Assembly (NCBI GenBank): GCA_017615275.1
Contig: JAGAAO010000075.1
Coordinates: 1 to 39,981, forward strand
Direction of reading: 5' to 3'
Origin: Butyrivibrio sp.
GTDB lineage: Bacteria > Bacillota > Clostridia > Lachnospirales > Lachnospiraceae
DNA: 39,981 nt
Shown: piece by piece, positions 267-14,545 of the stretch
How the letters are laid out: each line of letters opens with the position of its first letter
Numbering within the stretch: the first letter of the stretch is position 1
Translations under genes and position numbers: made by a program
The notes under the pieces: model-generated
Told to the model about the DNA's origin: nothing
What the model saw: the letters and a program-made list of their open reading frames with translations, nothing else
The model's database searches: none

Positions 267-339
267 GCTGGAATGGCGCAGTTGGTAGCGCAACTGATTC
301 GTAATCAGTAGGTCGAGGGTTCGAGTCCCTTTTCCAGCT
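267..339 (+). tRNA. tRNA-Thr (anticodon CGT)
   Basis: The sequence folds as a full cloverleaf. The acceptor arm GCTGGAA pairs with TTCCAGC, and the discriminator base is T339. The anticodon stem ACTGA/TCAGT encloses TTCGTAA with anticodon CGT, which reads ACG threonine codons. The T arm is GAGGG/CCCTT around TTCGAGT. The 3' CCA is not encoded. A good promoter lies upstream and a terminator starts 8 bases downstream, so this is probably a single-gene transcript. Confidence 0.95.
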
Positions 340-346
340 CTAATTC

Positions 347-429: not shown

Positions 430-2868
430 TTATTTTGCGCTTTTTTTCGTCGATTTTCTGCGTCTCTTTGGCTTCCCTGAGATGCTCTTTATCGCTTCTT
501 TCGAGACGATATCAAAGATTCGCTCTTCTTCAATCTTCTCGTACTTCTCTTCTATAGCCTTTTCCTGTTCGGCAAGCTCTTTTTCATACTTGAGCTTAAG
601 CTCGCTGATAAGTCTCTGCTCCTCTTCGTTCTGCTTCTCTTTCAGAGCTTCGAGCTTCTCCTTGCGCTCTTCTTCCTTCTTTATCTCCTGTTCCTCTTTG
701 ATCGCTCGAATCTTTTTCTCCTGCTCAGAGTAAGGAACATAGCTGTAAATCGCAAGTGTAGCCGCAGCAAGATGTAGCTTAAGCGAATAATCCCTGCCGT
801 CAACCTCTTTTCTGACAGCTTCAAGTCTTCCTTCGTTTAGAAGTCCGCTTCCGCCATAACTTACTTCATCGCTGTTGAAGATCTCAGTATACCTTCCGTC
901 TGCAGGAACACCGACTTCGATCTCGCGCTCAATTCCCGCCATATTCACAACAACAATAAGCATCTCTTTTTCATCAGAACTCTTTCTGGCAAAAGAGATC
1001 ATGCACTCATCGGCTGCCATATTGTTGATCCATTCAAAACCATCATCGGAACTGTCTGCCTCATGAAGCGCAGCCTTGCTCTTATAAAGATCATTGAGCT
1101 TCTTAAGCAGATTTTCAACAAACACAGCCTGATCGACCGTGAGTGCGTCAGGTTCCATATAAATGTGCTTCCTTCCTGGATGAACCATCATATAGCTCAG
1201 AGCCAGGCGAAGGTTAGCCATCTTCTGGTATGAATCACCGGGCATCATATAATAGAGACCTTCCAGTCCCTTTTCAAGTTCCTCATGGGTATAAGCAAGA
1301 ACAAAGCGCTCCGTGTAACAATAGATCATGCTAAACGTAAGCTCATCGTGATGCCCCGATCTAAACAAAGGATCGTTCTTCATATAAGAAAGGAAATCTC
1401 TCGTCCAACCGTTATTCCACTTATAGTCAAATCCAAGCCCGCCGTTTTCAGCCGTATCGGTAACCTGTGGCCAGCAAGCCGTTTCCTTGGTTATCATAAG
1501 CACACCGGGATTATCCTTGTGCACATTCTCCGTAAGCTGTTTCAGGAACTCAAGTGCCTCAAGATTCTCGTTACCGCCGTAAATATTCGGCATCCACTCA
1601 CCGGGCTTTCTGTCATAGTCAAGATAAAGAATCCTTGAAATATCAGATGTCCTGAGTCCGTCCACATGATATCTCTCAATCCAGAAAAGCGCATTGGAAA
1701 TAAGGAAGTTCGTTACTTCCTTTCTTCCGTAATCAAAGATCAGGTCGCCCGACATAGGACGAATTCCGATCCTGGGATCTTCATACTCATACAGAGGCTT
1801 TCCGTCGAAATCGCTAAGTCCGCACGAAGCCTTTGGGAAAAATGTGGGAACCCAATCGAGAATAACCCTGATTCCCTCATTATGCATCGTATTTACAAAG
1901 TTCATGAAATCCTCAGCAGTTCCGTTTGATTCATCAAGAGCATAGAAATTCAGAATATGATAAAAATGCTCCGGAACGTGCTTCATTACAGGCATAAGCT
2001 CAACGGTATCAAAGCCGTGATTCTTGACATATTCAAGAATATCAGCCGTGATCTCTTTAAATCCCGTCTTGCCATTGTGTCTGTCTGCAAACGCCTCAAT
2101 AGAAATCTCACAGATAGAAAGAGCACTTGCATCCTTGTCGAACTTCTTGCGCTGAGTGATCCACTTCTGATCTGTCCAGACAATAGACTTCTGCTTATTT
2201 ATAACGGAAACAATTCCGTTCTCGCCTTTTGATTCGGTTGCATAGGGATCGGGCCTCTTGAATACAACGCCGCTTCTTGTCTTTATCTCAAACTGATAGC
2301 CGTCGTTTTCTTTTGCCCCGGGAATAAATATATCAAAGATACCGATAGGATCGAGTCTGCGCATCTGGCACAGACGACCGTCCCAATTATTGAAATCTCC
2401 AATAACACTCACCCTCGCCGCAGAAGGCGCCCAAACAGCAAACTGCGTGCCGCTTACACCTCCGCGTCTCATGGGATGAGCTCCGAGTTTCTCATAAATA
2501 TGGTAATGGATTCCGCTTCCAAACTTGATAAAATCTTCTCTCTCAAGAAGCGGATCGAATGAATAGGGATCGACGACCATTGTTTCTTTGCCGTCGGTTC
2601 CCTTAATGACAAATTTGTATTTCAGTTTATCAACATACGGAACAATCGCAGCGTAGAATCCCGCCTCATCAGCAAGCTCCATCTCATATGTCTTTTCCTG
2701 ATTCTCGACATATACGCTAACAGATACTGCATCCGGATAAAACGCCTGAACAAGATAATTGGAGCCAACCTTATGCGCTCCAAGTATTCTGTGGGGGTTA
2801 TCTCCGTCGGAATAAATAATTTCCTCAATTTCGGGCCAATTCATCATCTTGTACAATTTAGCGTTCAA
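430..2868 (-). CDS. GlgB-family (GH13) protein with degenerate active site and C-terminal coiled coil
   Basis: A homologue of 1,4-alpha-glucan branching enzyme of about 812 residues. Two CBM48-like beta domains (about 10-120 and 135-225) precede a GH13 barrel (about 245-600). Long blocks match GlgB, such as YGRKEVTNFLISNALFWIER and MPGDSYQKMANLR. The catalytic positions do not: the nucleophile Asp in the GLRVDAV block is Ser (GLRTSD, about residue 408), the first Glu of AEEST is Lys (TKET, about 461), and the Asp of SHDE is Glu (THEE, about 529). The WGYQ substrate region is also lost. Residues 714-784 are a charged coiled coil, followed by a Lys/Arg-rich tail. I place the start at TTG 2868, 9 bases after GGAGG; ATG 2847 is the alternative. 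It lies 52 bases downstream of the DUF1015 gene, last in the ser operon. A non-catalytic glucan-binding or scaffolding role is an inference. Confidence 0.85.
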   Translation of the reverse strand: MNAKLYKMMNWPEIEEIIYSDGDNPHRILGAHKVGSNYLVQAFYPDAVSVSVYVENQEKTYEMELADEAGFYAAIVPYVDKLKYKFVIKGTDGKETMVVDPYSFDPLLEREDFIKFGSGIHYHIYEKLGAHPMRRGGVSGTQFAVWAPSAARVSVIGDFNNWDGRLCQMRRLDPIGIFDIFIPGAKENDGYQFEIKTRSGVVFKRPDPYATESKGENGIVSVINKQKSIVWTDQKWITQRKKFDKDASALSICEISIEAFADRHNGKTGFKEITADILEYVKNHGFDTVELMPVMKHVPEHFYHILNFYALDESNGTAEDFMNFVNTMHNEGIRVILDWVPTFFPKASCGLSDFDGKPLYEYEDPRIGIRPMSGDLIFDYGRKEVTNFLISNALFWIERYHVDGLRTSDISRILYLDYDRKPGEWMPNIYGGNENLEALEFLKQLTENVHKDNPGVLMITKETACWPQVTDTAENGGLGFDYKWNNGWTRDFLSYMKNDPLFRSGHHDELTFSMIYCYTERFVLAYTHEELEKGLEGLYYMMPGDSYQKMANLRLALSYMMVHPGRKHIYMEPDALTVDQAVFVENLLKKLNDLYKSKAALHEADSSDDGFEWINNMAADECMISFARKSSDEKEMLIVVVNMAGIEREIEVGVPADGRYTEIFNSDEVSYGGSGLLNEGRLEAVRKEVDGRDYSLKLHLAAATLAIYSYVPYSEQEKKIRAIKEEQEIKKEEERKEKLEALKEKQNEEEQRLISELKLKYEKELAEQEKAIEEKYEKIEEERIFDIVSKEAIKSISGKPKRRRKSTKKSAK

Positions 2869-2920: not shown

Positions 2921-4174
2921 TTAGTTAATTGTACCATTAATACTATGTATAAATAAACCACTTAAAAGTTTGGGTTCAAACCAGGTTGACTTGGGAGGCA
3001 TGAGTCTGCCTGCATCCGCAACGTCAAAGAGCTCTGAAATCGAAGTCGGATACATGGAAAATGCCAGCTTCATATCCTTGTGACATCTATCCTCAAGTTC
3101 CTTCAGTCCCCTTATTCCTCCAACAAAATCAATTCTCTTATCTGTCCTCGGATCGCCGATTCCAAGTATAGGAGAAAGAACCTCATTCTGAAGAATAGAA
3201 ACATCAAGTCCCTCAACCGCGTCACTATTCTTAATATGCTCTTTTGCATTAAGTTTATACCAGTTATCTTCAAGGAAAAGACCAAACTCACCCTTGTGCG
3301 CCGGCTTAACTGCTGATGTAGCCTTCTCAACCTCAAACATCTCACCGAGCTTATCAATGAATTCTCCCGCCGTAAGACCGTTAAGATCCTTGACCACTCT
3401 GTTGTAGTCCATGATCATAAGCTCGCTGTCAGGGAAAAGAACTGAGAGAAAATAATCAGACTGAAGCTTTCCACGCACTTTTCCTGCAGCTTCTTCTCTC
3501 TTTTTAAGTCCAACCTTTACAGCCGAAGCGCATCTGTGATGACCGTCTGCGATATAGATATCACTAATTGTAGTAAATACTCTGCAAACAGTCTCCGTCT
3601 CTTCAAGATCGGAAATAATCCATATTCTGTTCTTAACGCCATCTTCCGAAGTAAAATCATAGACAGGCTCATCAACTTCCTTGATCTTGGCGATAAGGTC
3701 ACTAAGAAGTTTATTGTTTCTGTAGCACAAAAAGATAGGACCTGTCTGCGCCTCACATGTATATACATGCTTTATCCTGTCTTCTTCTTTCTCAGCCCTG
3801 GTATTCTCGTGCTTCTTGATGACATTATTAAGATAGTCATCAATTGATGCGCAGGCAACAATACCTGTCTGAGTTCTGCCATTCATTGTCTGCTCATAAA
3901 TGTAATAGCAATTTGTTTCATCCTGGTCGAAAACACCCTCTTCAATCTGTCCCCAGAGCATATCATGCGCCTTCTGATAAACTTCAGGTGCGTACATGTC
4001 ATAATCCTCAGGGAACTGAGTTTCGGGTCTGTCAATAGCAAGGAAAGACGCAGGATTCTCTTTTACCTTCTCATATGCCTCTTTTCTGCTAAAAACATCA
4101 TAGGGAAGAGCCGAAACTCTTCCCACATTACCCTTTGTTGGTCTGTATGCTTTAAAAGGTTTGATGTCTGCCAT
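2921..4174 (-). CDS. DUF1015 family protein
   Basis: A 417-residue protein matching the DUF1015 family: an N-terminal PYDVFSRKEA block (about 24-33), KKHENTRAEKEEDR (about 120-133) and the signature IADGHHRCASA (about 208-218), whose His-His-Arg could form an active site. The start ATG is 2 bases after the serA stop and is preceded by AAGGAAG, so it is translated with serA. DUF1015 genes often sit beside serA and serC in Clostridia, which suggests a role in serine or phosphoserine metabolism. The biochemical function is unknown to me. No phosphoserine phosphatase gene is visible in the window. Confidence 0.88.
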   Translation of the reverse strand: MADIKPFKAYRPTKGNVGRVSALPYDVFSRKEAYEKVKENPASFLAIDRPETQFPEDYDMYAPEVYQKAHDMLWGQIEEGVFDQDETNCYYIYEQTMNGRTQTGIVACASIDDYLNNVIKKHENTRAEKEEDRIKHVYTCEAQTGPIFLCYRNNKLLSDLIAKIKEVDEPVYDFTSEDGVKNRIWIISDLEETETVCRVFTTISDIYIADGHHRCASAVKVGLKKREEAAGKVRGKLQSDYFLSVLFPDSELMIMDYNRVVKDLNGLTAGEFIDKLGEMFEVEKATSAVKPAHKGEFGLFLEDNWYKLNAKEHIKNSDAVEGLDVSILQNEVLSPILGIGDPRTDKRIDFVGGIRGLKELEDRCHKDMKLAFSMYPTSISELFDVADAGRLMPPKSTWFEPKLLSGLFIHSINGTIN

Positions 4175-4176
4175 AA

Positions 4177-5346
4177 TTATGCTTCCTTCTTAACAACTCT
4201 GACTCTCATAACACCGTCAATCTTAGTAAGTTTCTTAACAAGATCATCTGAAATGTTGTCTTCAAGGTCAATAAGAGTATAAGCAAAATCACCCTTTGAC
4301 TTGTTTGTCATATCTGAAATATTATAACCAGCCTCGCCGAGTACTGTTGTAAATTGGCTGATCATATTAGCTACATTCTTATGGAAAATAGCAATTCTGG
4401 GACTTGTGGCAATTCCCATATCACATCCGGGATAATTCACGGAGTTGTTGATATTTCCGTTCTCAAGGTAATCCTTAAGTTCGAGAACAGCCTTAACTGC
4501 ACAGTTGTCTTCCGACTCCTCTGTTGATGCACCAAGGTGAGGAATTACGATACATCCGTCGTGACCTGCTGTTGTAGGGTTCGGGAAATCTGTCACATAC
4601 TTGCGGATCTTACCTGAGTTAATTCCTGCAAGTACATCAACTTCGTTGCAGAGGATATCTCTTGCAAGATTGATGATGATAACACCCTTCTTCATCTTAG
4701 CGATCGCATCAGCATTGATCATACCCTTTGTTGAATCAAGCGCAGGTACATGAACTGTGATGATGTCGCACTTTGAATATATATCATCAACATTTGTAAC
4801 ATGCTTAACGTCTGAAGAAAGTCTCCAAGCCGCATCGATTGAAAGATAAGGATCATATCCGTAAACATCCATACCGAGCTGTCTTGCTGCGTTTGCAACT
4901 CTGACACCGATAGCACCAAGTCCGATGATACCGAGCTTCTTACCGAAGATCTCAGTACCTGCGAACTTCTTCTTTGACTTCTCTGTGAGCTTAGCAATAT
5001 CAGGATCACCTGCATTTGCCTTAACCCACTCTGTTCCTCCGATGATATCTCTTGAAGCAATAAGCATTGCTGCAAGAACCATCTCTTTTACACCGTTTGC
5101 ATTAGCTCCGGGAGTGTTGAATACAACGATTCCCTGCTGTGCACACTTATCAAGAGGAATATTGTTGACTCCGGCACCTGCTCTTGCGATTGCAAGAAGG
5201 TTGTCAGAGAACTCCATCTCAAGCATGTTAGCACTTCTTACGAGGATGCCATCAGCATCATCAACGTTATCAACTGCCTGATATTCTTTAGTGAAATTAT
5301 TAAGACCGATCTTTGCAATCGGATTCATGCATTTATACTTGTACAT
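4177..5346 (-). CDS. serA: D-3-phosphoglycerate dehydrogenase
   Basis: The first enzyme of the phosphorylated serine pathway, oxidising 3-phosphoglycerate to 3-phosphohydroxypyruvate with NAD. The 389-residue chain has the dehydrogenase fold with GLGAIGVRVAN (NAD binding, about 142-152), the Arg-containing NLARDILCNEVD block and the His-containing PHLGASTEESEDN block, then a C-terminal ACT-like domain (about 325-389) that may sense serine. The Glu of the usual Arg/Glu/His triad is not at the expected place (VTDFPNPT here); I believe this occurs in related short SerA proteins, but I did not check. Its ATG overlaps the serC stop by one base (TAATG), with AAGGAG 8 bases upstream. Confidence 0.95.
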   Translation of the reverse strand: MYKYKCMNPIAKIGLNNFTKEYQAVDNVDDADGILVRSANMLEMEFSDNLLAIARAGAGVNNIPLDKCAQQGIVVFNTPGANANGVKEMVLAAMLIASRDIIGGTEWVKANAGDPDIAKLTEKSKKKFAGTEIFGKKLGIIGLGAIGVRVANAARQLGMDVYGYDPYLSIDAAWRLSSDVKHVTNVDDIYSKCDIITVHVPALDSTKGMINADAIAKMKKGVIIINLARDILCNEVDVLAGINSGKIRKYVTDFPNPTTAGHDGCIVIPHLGASTEESEDNCAVKAVLELKDYLENGNINNSVNYPGCDMGIATSPRIAIFHKNVANMISQFTTVLGEAGYNISDMTNKSKGDFAYTLIDLEDNISDDLVKKLTKIDGVMRVRVVKKEA

Positions 5347-6428
5347 TAAGCGTTCTCCTTCTCAAATTTTTCCATGAACTCAACGAGCTTCTTAACACCT
5401 TCGATAGGCATTGCGTTGTAAATACTTGCTCTCATACCGCCTACTGTTCTGTGTCCCTTAAGGCTTACGAAACCTGCAGCTGTTGCCTCTTTGATGAACT
5501 TGGCGTTGAGCTCTTCGCTGTCTGTTACGAAAGGTACATTCATAAGTGAACGATCCTCAGGTCTTACAGTACCCTTGAACATCTTGCTCTGATCGAGATA
5601 ATCGTAAAGAATCTTAGCCTTAGCTTCGTTTCTCTTCTTCATCTCTTCAAGTCCACCCTGCTCCTTGAGCCACTTGAATACGAGTCCGCACATGTAGATG
5701 CTCCAGCAGTTAGGTGTGTTGTAAAGAGATCCGTTATCAGCCTGAGTCTTCCACTTAAGCATTGTAGGTGTGTAAGCAGGAACATCATCAGTGATGAGAT
5801 CCTCTCTGATAATTGCGATAACAAGACCTGCAGGTCCAACGTTCTTCTGAACACCGCCGTAGATAACGCCGTACTTTGTTACATCAACAGGCTCTGAAAG
5901 GAAGCATGAAGATACATCAGATACAAGAATATGTCCCTTTGTGTTGGGAAGAGTCTTGAACTTTGTTCCGTAAATTGTATTATTCTCGCAGATATATACG
6001 TAATCTACATCATCGGGAATATCAAGATCCGAGCAATCAGGAATATAGGAGAAAGTCTTATCTGCACTTGAAGCTACTTCAATAGCCTCACCGTACTTCT
6101 GAGCTTCCTGATAAGCCTTCTTAGCCCACTGACCTGTTACGATATATGCAGCCTTGCCGTTCTTCATAAGGTTGAGAGGAACTGCAGCGAACTGCTGGCT
6201 TGCGCCACCCTGCAAAAAGAGAACCTTGTAATTGTCAGGGATGTTCATAAGATCCCTTATGTCCTGCTCAGCAGTCTGAATAACTTCGTCAAAAGTCTTA
6301 GATCTGTGGCTCATCTCGTTGATAGACATTCCACATCCGTTGTAATCAAGCATCTCAGCAGCTGCCTTCTTAAGTACTTCCTCGGGAAGAACCGCGGGAC
6401 CGGCAGAAAAATTATAAACTCTAGACAT
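5346..6428 (-). CDS. serC: Phosphoserine aminotransferase
   Basis: The second step of serine synthesis: PLP-dependent transamination of 3-phosphohydroxypyruvate with glutamate. The 360-residue protein begins with the family signature RVYNFSAGPAVLPEEVL and carries the PLP-lysine block YGGVQKNVGPAG. Length is normal. The ATG at 6428 has AGGAGG 9 bases upstream. It is the first gene of a serC-serA-DUF1015-glgB-like transcript driven by the promoter at 6486-6513. Confidence 0.97.
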   Translation of the reverse strand: MSRVYNFSAGPAVLPEEVLKKAAAEMLDYNGCGMSINEMSHRSKTFDEVIQTAEQDIRDLMNIPDNYKVLFLQGGASQQFAAVPLNLMKNGKAAYIVTGQWAKKAYQEAQKYGEAIEVASSADKTFSYIPDCSDLDIPDDVDYVYICENNTIYGTKFKTLPNTKGHILVSDVSSCFLSEPVDVTKYGVIYGGVQKNVGPAGLVIAIIREDLITDDVPAYTPTMLKWKTQADNGSLYNTPNCWSIYMCGLVFKWLKEQGGLEEMKKRNEAKAKILYDYLDQSKMFKGTVRPEDRSLMNVPFVTDSEELNAKFIKEATAAGFVSLKGHRTVGGMRASIYNAMPIEGVKKLVEFMEKFEKENA

Positions 6429-11766: not shown

Positions 11767-13464
11767 TTATTTAATATACAAAACAAGATTATCGTTTTCA
11801 TACAGAACATGCATCGAATTGAGATAATTCCAATCAATCGTCTCGTACGTCTGGTAGAATTTCCAGAAATCCTCCCCGGTATACTCGGGAACAAACATGT
11901 TCTTATCAAGCAACACGCAATCCGCTCCTTCAATATCAGTCTTCTGGCAATCAATGTCCCAGCCGAACTTAAGAAGATACTGCTGATCACAATCAAGCAC
12001 TGCGATATTGTGTCGTTTTGTCACTTCAGCGATATAAAGCGTATTGAATATATCATTTTCCCTGGAAGCAATCTGATAACTGAATCCGGGATCAAAAAAT
12101 CTGAATCCAAAAAAGATAACAATGCATATGATGGGCAGATATGTGGCAAATCCCGCATACCACCTGTCATCCTTTGCCATAGTCTCAAATTCTTTACTGG
12201 TCTTTGAGACATTTATACCTTTATCGATCAGCTTTTTCTGATTATATAATCTAATGCACAGATTTATCAACCTCTCAAGAGCCGTACATACACACAGAAC
12301 TATAACAAACGCTCCGTGGGTAAAAACTCTGAGATAAGGGAGCTTGTGCTCCAAACATATCATTGCAACAAAGAAAAAAATGTTTACTATAACAACAAGA
12401 TTAACTACTGTTCTGCTGTATTCAAAATGCTTTACGCACTCATATACAAGGCATCCCAGACTTACAAGCATAATAACCAATAATAAAACACTGAATCCGG
12501 GAACATAATAGTTCAGAAGACTCATAAACCATGGGAATACTCTGTTCCAGAAATTTTCATGTGTCATTCCCTGGATATAAGGCATCGAAAGCATGTAATC
12601 TATTCCGGTCCACATAGACTTGAACGTAGCCTTGATTATCGTGCTCACATGAGAAGCTCCGAAAAACAGTGAGTTCTCATCTTTTACAAGTAAGTTTGAA
12701 CCGATGGCAAGCCAGATTATCATATACAAAAATACAACAATCCCGGCAGATATAACACCGGTATACAAAAGCTTTCGCAGCTTTTTGTAATATATGTTTT
12801 CATAAAAAGTCTCATATACATCCTTACTTCTCACAGCATTGATCAGTAAGAATATAACGCCCGAAGCGCCCACGGGAATAACCCAGTAAACGCTGCTGGG
12901 AACGATGTAAAGCCCCATCACAAAGGCAGCGCCGAGAAAATAATAATATGATTTCTTATCGGCTCCAAGCCTGCATATGCATCCGATATAATAAATAGCG
13001 CAAAGAAAACATGTAGTTGCGAGTGTATATCCTCTTCCCTGAACGCTGTAATCATTTACGATCTGCATAGATGCGTAAAGAACAACAGCTCCGAACGGAA
13101 TCGCATGCGAATAATATCTTTTACTTATCACATAGACAAGATAAAGATTCAATACTGCCGCAATGTACGATACACCTCTAAGTCCTATATATGAGTTTCC
13201 AAAGAGATTGAATATCGCGGATATTACAGAATATCCGACGTGATTGTTTGGAAGTGGCCAGTGAATGGCGGAATAAATAGGACCTCTGCTTATAAAATTA
13301 TAATAAGTATAGAGTTCGTCATAATGAGGCGTGATCGCAAACATTCTCCAAATGTAATATGCACCCATGGCAATGATAAAAAGCGTAACAGCCATTGTCT
13401 CGGGTCTGCTTGGAAGAAAGTCATATATTCTTTTTTCGTTTTTAACCCTTGATGATTCGCTCAC
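11767..13464 (-). CDS. Polytopic membrane protein, GT-C/GT39-like
   Basis: About 565 residues with roughly 10-12 hydrophobic helices. After the first helix (about 25-43) comes an extracytoplasmic loop with the acidic pair in [11 protein letters not shown] (Asp49, Glu50), the pattern of GT-C glycosyltransferases that use lipid-linked sugars. The C-terminal part after the last helix is soluble. I place the start at GTG 13464, 9 bases after GGGAG inside the end of leuB, which overlaps leuB by 23 bases; ATG 13395 is the alternative. An upstream extension would lie wholly inside leuB in another frame. Its place between leuB and ilvD is unusual; whether it acts on wall polymers or proteins is unknown. 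Confidence 0.75.
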
Positions 13465-14545
13465 CCAACAAGTCTCCCATCTTCTGACATCCGACAAGTG
13501 TAAACTTGTCCTCCTGTCCCTTGGGCATGAGATCGATCGTTCTGTAACCGTCCTCAAGCACCTTGCGAACAGCATTCTCGATAGCATCTGCTTCCTTATC
13601 AAGATTGAAAGAATATCTAAGCATCATTGCTGCAGAAAGAACCGTAGCAATGGGATTTGCAATATCTTTTCCGGCAATGTCCGGAGCACTTCCGTGACTC
13701 GGCTCATAGAGACCAAAGCTTGTATCATTAAGTGAAGCACTCGGAAGCATTCCGATCGATCCTGTGATCATACTTGCCTCGTCGGAAAGAATGTCTCCAA
13801 ACATGTTCTCTGTAAGAACAACATCAAACTGTGTAGGCTCTTTTACAAGCTGCATAGCACAGTTGTCTACAAGCATATGCTCAAGCGTAACATCGGGATA
13901 ATCCTTCTTTACTTCCTCAACGACCTTTCTCCAAAGTCTTGAAGAATCAAGAACATTTGCCTTATCTACACTTATAACGCTCTTTCTGCGCTTTCTTGCC
14001 ACATCAAATGCGCGGATCGCAATTCTTCTTATCTCACTCTCTTTGTAAACAAGAGTATCTGTGGCAACCTGCTCGCCGCCTTCTTCCTTCGTCCATCTGT
14101 CGCCGAAGTAAAGGCCGCCTGTGAGTTCTCTCATAATGAGCATATCAAAGCCCTTATCTGCAACAGCCTCTTTTAAAGGACATGCGTCCTTAAGCTGCGG
14201 ATATAGATATGCAGGTCTGAGATTTGCAAAAAGATTAAGAGCCTTTCTGAGTTTCAAAAGACCTGCTTCAGGTCTCAATGAAGGCTCAAGTTTATACCAA
14301 GGAGATGTTGATGTGTTTCCGCCGATTGATCCCATAAGTACGGCGTCGGCTGCCTTAGCATCCGCAATAGCTTCATCTGTAAGCGGAACGCCGTGAACGT
14401 CTATGGAGCAGCCTCCCATCAGGATGTCTTTGTACTCAATTGAATGTCCGAATTCGGATGCGACCTTATTAAGTACCTTCTTAGCTTCGGCGACAATCTC
14501 AGGTCCGATTCCGTCTCCGGGAATGCATGTAATATTAAGTTTCAT
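13442..14545 (-). CDS. leuB: 3-isopropylmalate dehydrogenase
   Basis: Oxidative decarboxylation of 3-isopropylmalate in leucine synthesis. The 367-residue protein has the beta-decarboxylating dehydrogenase signatures GDGIGPEIV (N-terminus), [29 protein letters not shown] and [19 protein letters not shown]. The ribosome binding site is weak (AGAGAG/GGGA). It is preceded on the minus strand by the hairpin at 14584-14610 and is the first branched-chain gene of the run. leuA and leuCD are not in the window. Confidence 0.97.

Follow-up and report, generated by a model that had tools for sequence, protein, structure and literature searches.

What does a glycogen branching enzyme homologue do once its catalytic residues have been replaced? 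The question is raised by glgB2, a gene on the minus strand of a 39,981-nucleotide stretch of DNA from the rumen bacterium Butyrivibrio sp. (assembly GCA_017615275.1, contig JAGAAO010000075.1; hereafter the window, which is contig C46 of a genome estimated to be 84.8% complete). Judging from its sequence, the protein very probably neither breaks nor forms glucosidic bonds; the fuller statement, that it is a pseudo-branching-enzyme working as a glycogen-binding scaffold or regulatory subunit, has about an even chance of being right. The sequence and the structure model support it by a GlgB architecture in which the catalytic triad, the region I histidine and the WGYQ block are replaced, by an N domain and glucan-site tryptophans that have been retained, by purifying selection, and by the presence in the same genome of another GlgB whose motifs are intact.

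The gene starts with a TTG codon at 2868-2866, with GGAGG 9 nucleotides before it, and encodes 812 amino acids; ATG was considered first as the start and given up for the TTG behind GGAGG. The sequence-only reading had described a long intact open reading frame at 430..2868, leaving the strand unstated; these coordinates are right, and the frame contains no internal stop codon. The Pfam domains GlgB_N, CBM48, Alpha-amylase and Alpha-amylase_C follow each other as in GlgB. The product passes the cut-offs of the NCBIfam models TIGR01515 (597.5 bits vs 463.95) and NF008967 (627.6 vs 577) and does not reach that of NF003811 (649.8 vs 741). Bacterial GlgB proteins are its nearest solved structures, and a phmmer search matched many further GH13 enzymes at weaker scores. 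Its domains have the order and fold of bacterial GlgB (GH13 subfamily 9; E. coli, M. tuberculosis 3k1d, Rhodothermus 8zqa), to which it is 36-40% identical where the two align; unlike these proteins, it has none of the three catalytic acids, nor WGYQ or the region I histidine, has lost about 20 residues, and carries an added C-terminal helix and tail. We take D405, E458 and D526 of E. coli GlgB to be the catalytic residues and H340 to be the region I histidine (GH13 numbering). Residue numbers of the window protein exceed those of E. coli by three at the triad (S408/405, K461/458, E529/526), and all counts below use E. coli numbering. The gene and its parts are:

430..2868, minus strand: glgB2, GlgB homologue without the triad, 812 amino acids, TTG start
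2563..2838, minus strand: GlgB_N domain, residues 11-102 (Pfam PF22019)
2239..2490, minus strand: CBM48 domain, residues 127-210 (Pfam PF02922)
2383..2385, minus strand: W162, the retained equivalent of E. coli W159 in CBM48 glucan site IV
1069..2145, minus strand: GH13 barrel, residues 242-600, limits approximate and set by eye on the AlphaFold2 model (PF00128 covers only part of it)
1957..1968, minus strand: HFYH in place of E. coli WGYQ, in a block two residues shorter
1840..1842, minus strand: F343 in place of E. coli region I H340
1645..1647, minus strand: S408 in place of the E. coli nucleophile D405
1486..1488, minus strand: K461 in place of the E. coli acid/base E458
1282..1284, minus strand: E529 in place of E. 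coli D526
1147..1158, minus strand: MEPD after HIY, the point of a deletion of about 20 residues, with the equivalent of W586 (glucan site I) gone
742..1032, minus strand: alpha-amylase C-terminal domain, residues 613-709 (Pfam PF02806)
1030-1032, minus strand: W613, the retained equivalent of E. coli W628, glucan site VI
487..726, minus strand: predicted single long charged helix, residues 715-794 (AlphaFold2 model)
433..486, minus strand: basic tail with low model confidence, residues 795-812

The replacement of D405, E458 and D526 by Ser, Lys and Glu, read by eye in the sequence-only reading, was borne out by a HMMER alignment to M. tuberculosis GlgB (3k1d) and by MAFFT alignment with E. 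coli K-12 GlgB, as was the loss of the WGYQ region. The HMMER alignment and two MAFFT runs agree on all three positions; R403, D335 and H525 are retained, while about 20 residues that follow the HPGKK/HAGKK block in the GlgB1 of the same genome are absent (counted by eye). Misalignment is ruled out by the agreement of MAFFT with HMMER against solved structures and by flanking blocks that match without a shift. Sequencing or assembly error is likewise ruled out, the same state being found in isolate genomes: none of 62 distinct Butyrivibrio-type sequences, several of them from isolates, has D405, E458 or D526, so that the replacements are no sequencing accident and are, on the point raised in the sequence-only reading, shared by close relatives.

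These 62 sequences comprise 30 loci from a search of 61 Butyrivibrio genomes and a separate set of relatives (two, L088 and L089, carry a Lachnospiraceae label); the 28 other long copies enter the counts only where the same gene also belongs to the relatives set. They form part of an alignment of 201 rows, together with 101 triad-bearing rows, 36 other triad-less rows, E. coli GlgB and the GlgB1 of the window genome, a few rows duplicating one gene from two collections (L099/L141, L112/L227; zero distance). Position 405 varies among the Butyrivibrio-type sequences (S in 46, A in 10, P and T in 3 each), and K458, E526, D406 and E459 are each present in 62/62. The invariance of D406, E459 and E526, along with the retention of R403 and H525, could indicate that the protein is still an enzyme whose chemistry has been altered through these nearby acids. 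We regard this as very unlikely: the acid/base position is Lys in every Butyrivibrio-type sequence, E459 is no replacement because active E. coli GlgB also has it (AEE), and D406 occurs in only 16/36 of the other triad-less rows. Moreover, a single predicted strand of the window protein (404-409) holds R406, S408 and D409, and D409 should point away from the pocket, since side chains alternate along a strand.

The gene appears to be maintained in Butyrivibrio. Its long type was found in 58/61 genomes searched (60/61 with any match) at 50-100% identity, and all 58 also hold a second match at 37-43% identity (in two pieces in G010); the exceptions are the incomplete genomes G003 and G007, with the second match only, and G023, with neither. 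In 11 chosen pairs of Butyrivibrio-type genes the ratio of nonsynonymous to synonymous substitution rates (dN/dS, Nei-Gojobori) was 0.025-0.049; most dS values exceed 1 and are saturated, and the pairs with dS of 0.23 and 0.62 give 0.028 and 0.031. Pseudogene status is thereby ruled out for Butyrivibrio, and the earlier proposal of a maintained rather than decaying gene is well supported, also by the invariance of K458 and E526. Eight positions are fixed otherwise than in triad-bearing orthologues (at least 97% and 98%), and five of them lie within or adjoin catalytic motifs (A339T, A406D, A457T, E458K, D526E). From the sequences, the Butyrivibrio catalytic site looks like one that was altered and then frozen.

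A second, complete glgB, for which the sequence-only reading had advised looking, does exist in the window genome. This GlgB1 lies on a separate contig, C63 (809 bits), with intact WGYQ, D335, H340, RVDA, AEE and SHDEV. The Pfam-named genes around it are those for flagellin, DUF6240, rRNA dimethylase, TatD and Suf. No glg genes are found among the Pfam-named genes near either copy, and an operon with glg genes was rejected on that ground. Contig C99 carries a glgD-type gene above the cut-off and beside it a similar gene, which we take from its sequence as a putative glgC. No glycogen synthase scored above the cut-off in the window genome; this is probably a matter of genome incompleteness, since 10/10 other Butyrivibrio genomes searched have one. 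Elsewhere, canonical GlgB matches lie in unusually long frames, possible fusions (G054:C2:3260317-3262275, 1776 codons; L247, 1238).

Beyond the genus, a second glgB is widespread in Lachnospiraceae, usually close to a serA/serC, DUF1015 or MscS-like gene. A search with the window protein matched 237/298 genomes of the family at E <= 1e-140, and one with a Konateibacter relative matched 288/299 at E <= 1e-60, both tallies including any GlgB that passes, GlgB1 too. An order-wide search found relatives at 40-45% identity in other families. We sampled 120 orthologues, one per genome, among the matches listed for the window protein, omitting second matches and some other rows; the triad is kept in 95 and lost in 25, figures that are no measure of prevalence because the sample is skewed towards likeness with the window protein. 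Among the 36 other triad-less rows, one triad position is changed in 14, two in 16 and three in 6; rows with a single change need not be inactive, and the long-branched rows L207 and L221 are possibly misaligned at a motif. Conversely, L224, L228, L219 and L220 keep the triad letters and differ at other motif residues or have long branches, and may be altered enzymes overlooked by a triad count.

In the window, the conserved neighbours lie directly upstream of glgB2:

2921..4174, minus strand: DUF1015 protein (Pfam PF06245)
4177..5346, minus strand: serA-like 2-hydroxyacid dehydrogenase, matching the PGDH model under its cut-off
5346..6428, minus strand: serC, phosphoserine transaminase

A DUF1015, serA, serC or MscS-like neighbour on the same strand, at most four genes upstream or three downstream, accompanies 62/62 Butyrivibrio-type, 92/101 triad-bearing and 33/36 other triad-less loci (sets from blastp clustering; the MscS name is based on one representative). 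None of these genes was found beside GlgB1 of the window genome, either in its short locus or, by Pfam, in a longer stretch. Because the neighbours are common to both forms, triad-bearing and triad-less genes are largely positional orthologues.

Trees were built without the columns around the catalytic motifs, one with FastTree (156 rows) and one by a quick IQ-TREE search (91 rows, of which 52 have the triad and 39 lack it). In both, triad-less rows lie scattered between triad-bearing ones. On the IQ-TREE tree, parsimony requires 17 changes, and well-supported (starred) branches force at least 9 of these; 31 of the 88 inner branches of this tree are weak, and the exact number of losses is uncertain. 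A single clade of the 39 triad-less rows was rejected by this scatter and by an approximately unbiased (AU) test (p-AU 0.0003), for which the group had been defined before the tree, on residues outside the tree data. We infer that the triad was lost rather than regained in these changes; the catalytic residues of the second glgB seem to have been lost several times over in relatives, and repeated catalytic loss in one gene suggests a second, non-enzymatic job of the protein.

Every one of the 25 genomes holding a sampled triad-less gene has another TIGR01515 match, and in 24 of them the other copy has every canonical GlgB motif (copies in G068 are split or partial). A triad-bearing orthologue is the sole GlgB in 10 of 50 genomes examined (of 95). 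The association of loss with an extra GlgB gives a Fisher p of 0.025, relatedness not being taken into account, and a tie between the two is suggestive only. The same back-up copy could mean that the gene is redundant and, free to drift since GlgB1 branches, is decaying slowly. The raised dN/dS of several non-Butyrivibrio triad-less pairs (up to 0.215) would fit, and slow decay may apply to some lineages, individual ones of which may hold pseudogenes. As a general explanation it is very improbable: every ratio found is far below 1, and in Butyrivibrio the gene is nearly universal, tightly constrained and fixed for its replacement residues. The case for a maintained role is therefore best in Butyrivibrio and less strong in some of the other lineages.

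If catalysis is gone, what is retained? Where at least 97% of triad-bearing orthologues agree on a residue, the window protein keeps it in 9/9 cases in the N domain, 29/34 in CBM48, 68/104 in the barrel and 12/13 in the C domain. We compared the glucan sites with the residues tabulated for E. coli GlgB (PMC10254366). The site IV Trp (W159, CBM48) is present in 58/62 Butyrivibrio-type and 36/36 other triad-less rows, the site VI Trp (W628, C domain) in 62/62 and 36/36, and an aromatic residue at site VIII in 62/62 Butyrivibrio-type rows. The E. coli residues of sites II, III, V, IX and X are unconserved even among triad-bearing orthologues, and site XI is variable. Glucan binding or regulation of true glycogen enzymes, as proposed in the sequence-only reading, is plausible because the equivalents of W159 and W628 are kept.

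At the C terminus, helix 715-794 is a probable coiled coil, as read by eye from the model. Tails of at least 30 residues beyond the E. coli end occur in 61/62 Butyrivibrio-type sequences, 46/95 triad-bearing and 8/25 triad-less sampled orthologues and 1/24 GlgB1 proteins (L234-L257), lengths that are rough, being set by the end point of the alignment. The idea that a basic tail marks the whole family is thus only partly true. In L148, L153, L186 and L233 the C-terminal tails are built from short repeats rich in lysine or alanine, which vary between lineages.

On the scaffold or regulatory-subunit reading, the protein would still use CBM48 and the C domain to bind glycogen, on which it would act as a scaffold or regulatory subunit, its charged helix and basic tail possibly holding a partner, be it another molecule of the same protein, GlgB1, GlgC/GlgD or something else. 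The non-catalytic role of the second GlgB may, from the family pattern, be older than the loss of catalysis; catalysis would then have become dispensable wherever another GlgB carried out the branching, and could be lost there. Several observations weigh against this reading. The gene lies away from glg genes, among serine-pathway and DUF1015 genes. Glucan site I is deleted in 62/62 Butyrivibrio-type sequences, and sites VII and XII are changed. The tail is no family-wide need, being absent in 49/95 triad-bearing and 17/25 triad-less sampled orthologues. A single invariant column carries little weight, since 177/766 alignment columns (about 23%) are invariant in Butyrivibrio. Finally, dN/dS was 0.031-0.215 in 10 non-Butyrivibrio triad-less pairs vs 0.029-0.057 in 5 triad-bearing ones (dS mostly saturated), and values reaching 0.215 imply weaker constraint outside Butyrivibrio.

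The location of the gene and the strong charge of its helix and tail are also what would be expected had the protein departed from glycogen metabolism altogether, with the GlgB domains put to new use as a platform for interactions (e.g., for RNA, the nucleoid or the products of the serine/DUF1015 genes). The gene has serA/serC, DUF1015 and, in many genomes, MscS-like genes around it, not glg genes. We treat this as the main rival because a plant branching-enzyme paralogue went that way: AtBE1/MKIP1 (class III) is described as inactive, with an altered triad, under constraint, and with a charged added region, functioning in intron splicing, for which its CBM48 Trp is dispensable (PMC13172542). 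The plant protein differs in being chloroplast-located, in having two Asp changed and the Glu kept, whereas all three residues are changed in the window protein, in its charged region being internal and not C-terminal, and in having an identified splicing partner. A role outside glycogen nevertheless seems rather unlikely here, given that triad-less forms throughout retain the glucan-site Trp residues of both CBM48 and the C domain and that many orthologues with the same neighbours have the full triad.

Two further systems are among the closest known. Plant ISA2 is a GH13 relative without a working site that binds active ISA1 and affects glucan, its function having remained within glucan metabolism (PMC12510319); the window protein resembles it in having replaced catalytic residues and an active-looking paralogue in the genome. 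ISA2 differs in being a debranching-enzyme relative whose complex with an active partner has been demonstrated; for the window protein such a complex is conjectural. In the same pathway, GlgD is a paralogue that acts as a regulatory subunit of GlgC in some bacteria (PMC10395257). It belongs to another enzyme family, and the GlgD match and its neighbour are adjacent on C99, whereas glgB2 and glgB1 are on different contigs. Several glgB homologues are reported for some gut bacteria, some copies being homologues from different species (PMC10395257). A broader proposal is possible, though we hold it tentatively: the second GlgB of Lachnospiraceae would have two functions, of which the structural or signalling one is conserved and catalysis was dropped independently in many lineages, the Butyrivibrio site having been rebuilt (K458, D406 and E526 fixed) to sense a ligand or receive a partner. 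Such a protein would be a recurrent bacterial pseudoenzyme, parallel to plant ISA2 or MKIP1.

We found no report of loss of catalysis in a bacterial GlgB in the open-licence literature, a scope outside which most subscription papers fall; plants, by comparison, have ISA2 and AtBE1/MKIP1 as known non-catalytic relatives. A table for B. hungatei MB2003 gives glgB1 (663 aa) and glgB2 (bhn_I1458, 824 aa, with CBM48), both as branching enzymes (PMC5716241); as length and genus fit, the latter is probably the counterpart of the window gene. Since family models name the window gene a branching enzyme and this table lists its probable counterpart as one, counts of GlgB genes in rumen and gut bacteria, and models of their glycogen metabolism, would take in copies that probably have no branching activity. 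Should the proposed role be confirmed, the locus offers a natural experiment, one gene at one place with and without its catalytic site, apparently lost repeatedly beside another GlgB; jobs of branching enzymes besides branching would become testable in bacteria, and plant non-catalytic GH13 proteins would have a bacterial parallel.

Elsewhere in the window, a tRNA-Thr gene (anticodon CGT, 267-340, plus strand) lies directly downstream of glgB2 on the other strand. A PMT_2-type membrane glycosyltransferase-like protein is encoded at 11767-13602 (minus strand) within a branched-chain amino acid cluster, with leuB and ilvD on either side, and its listed start overlaps leuB.
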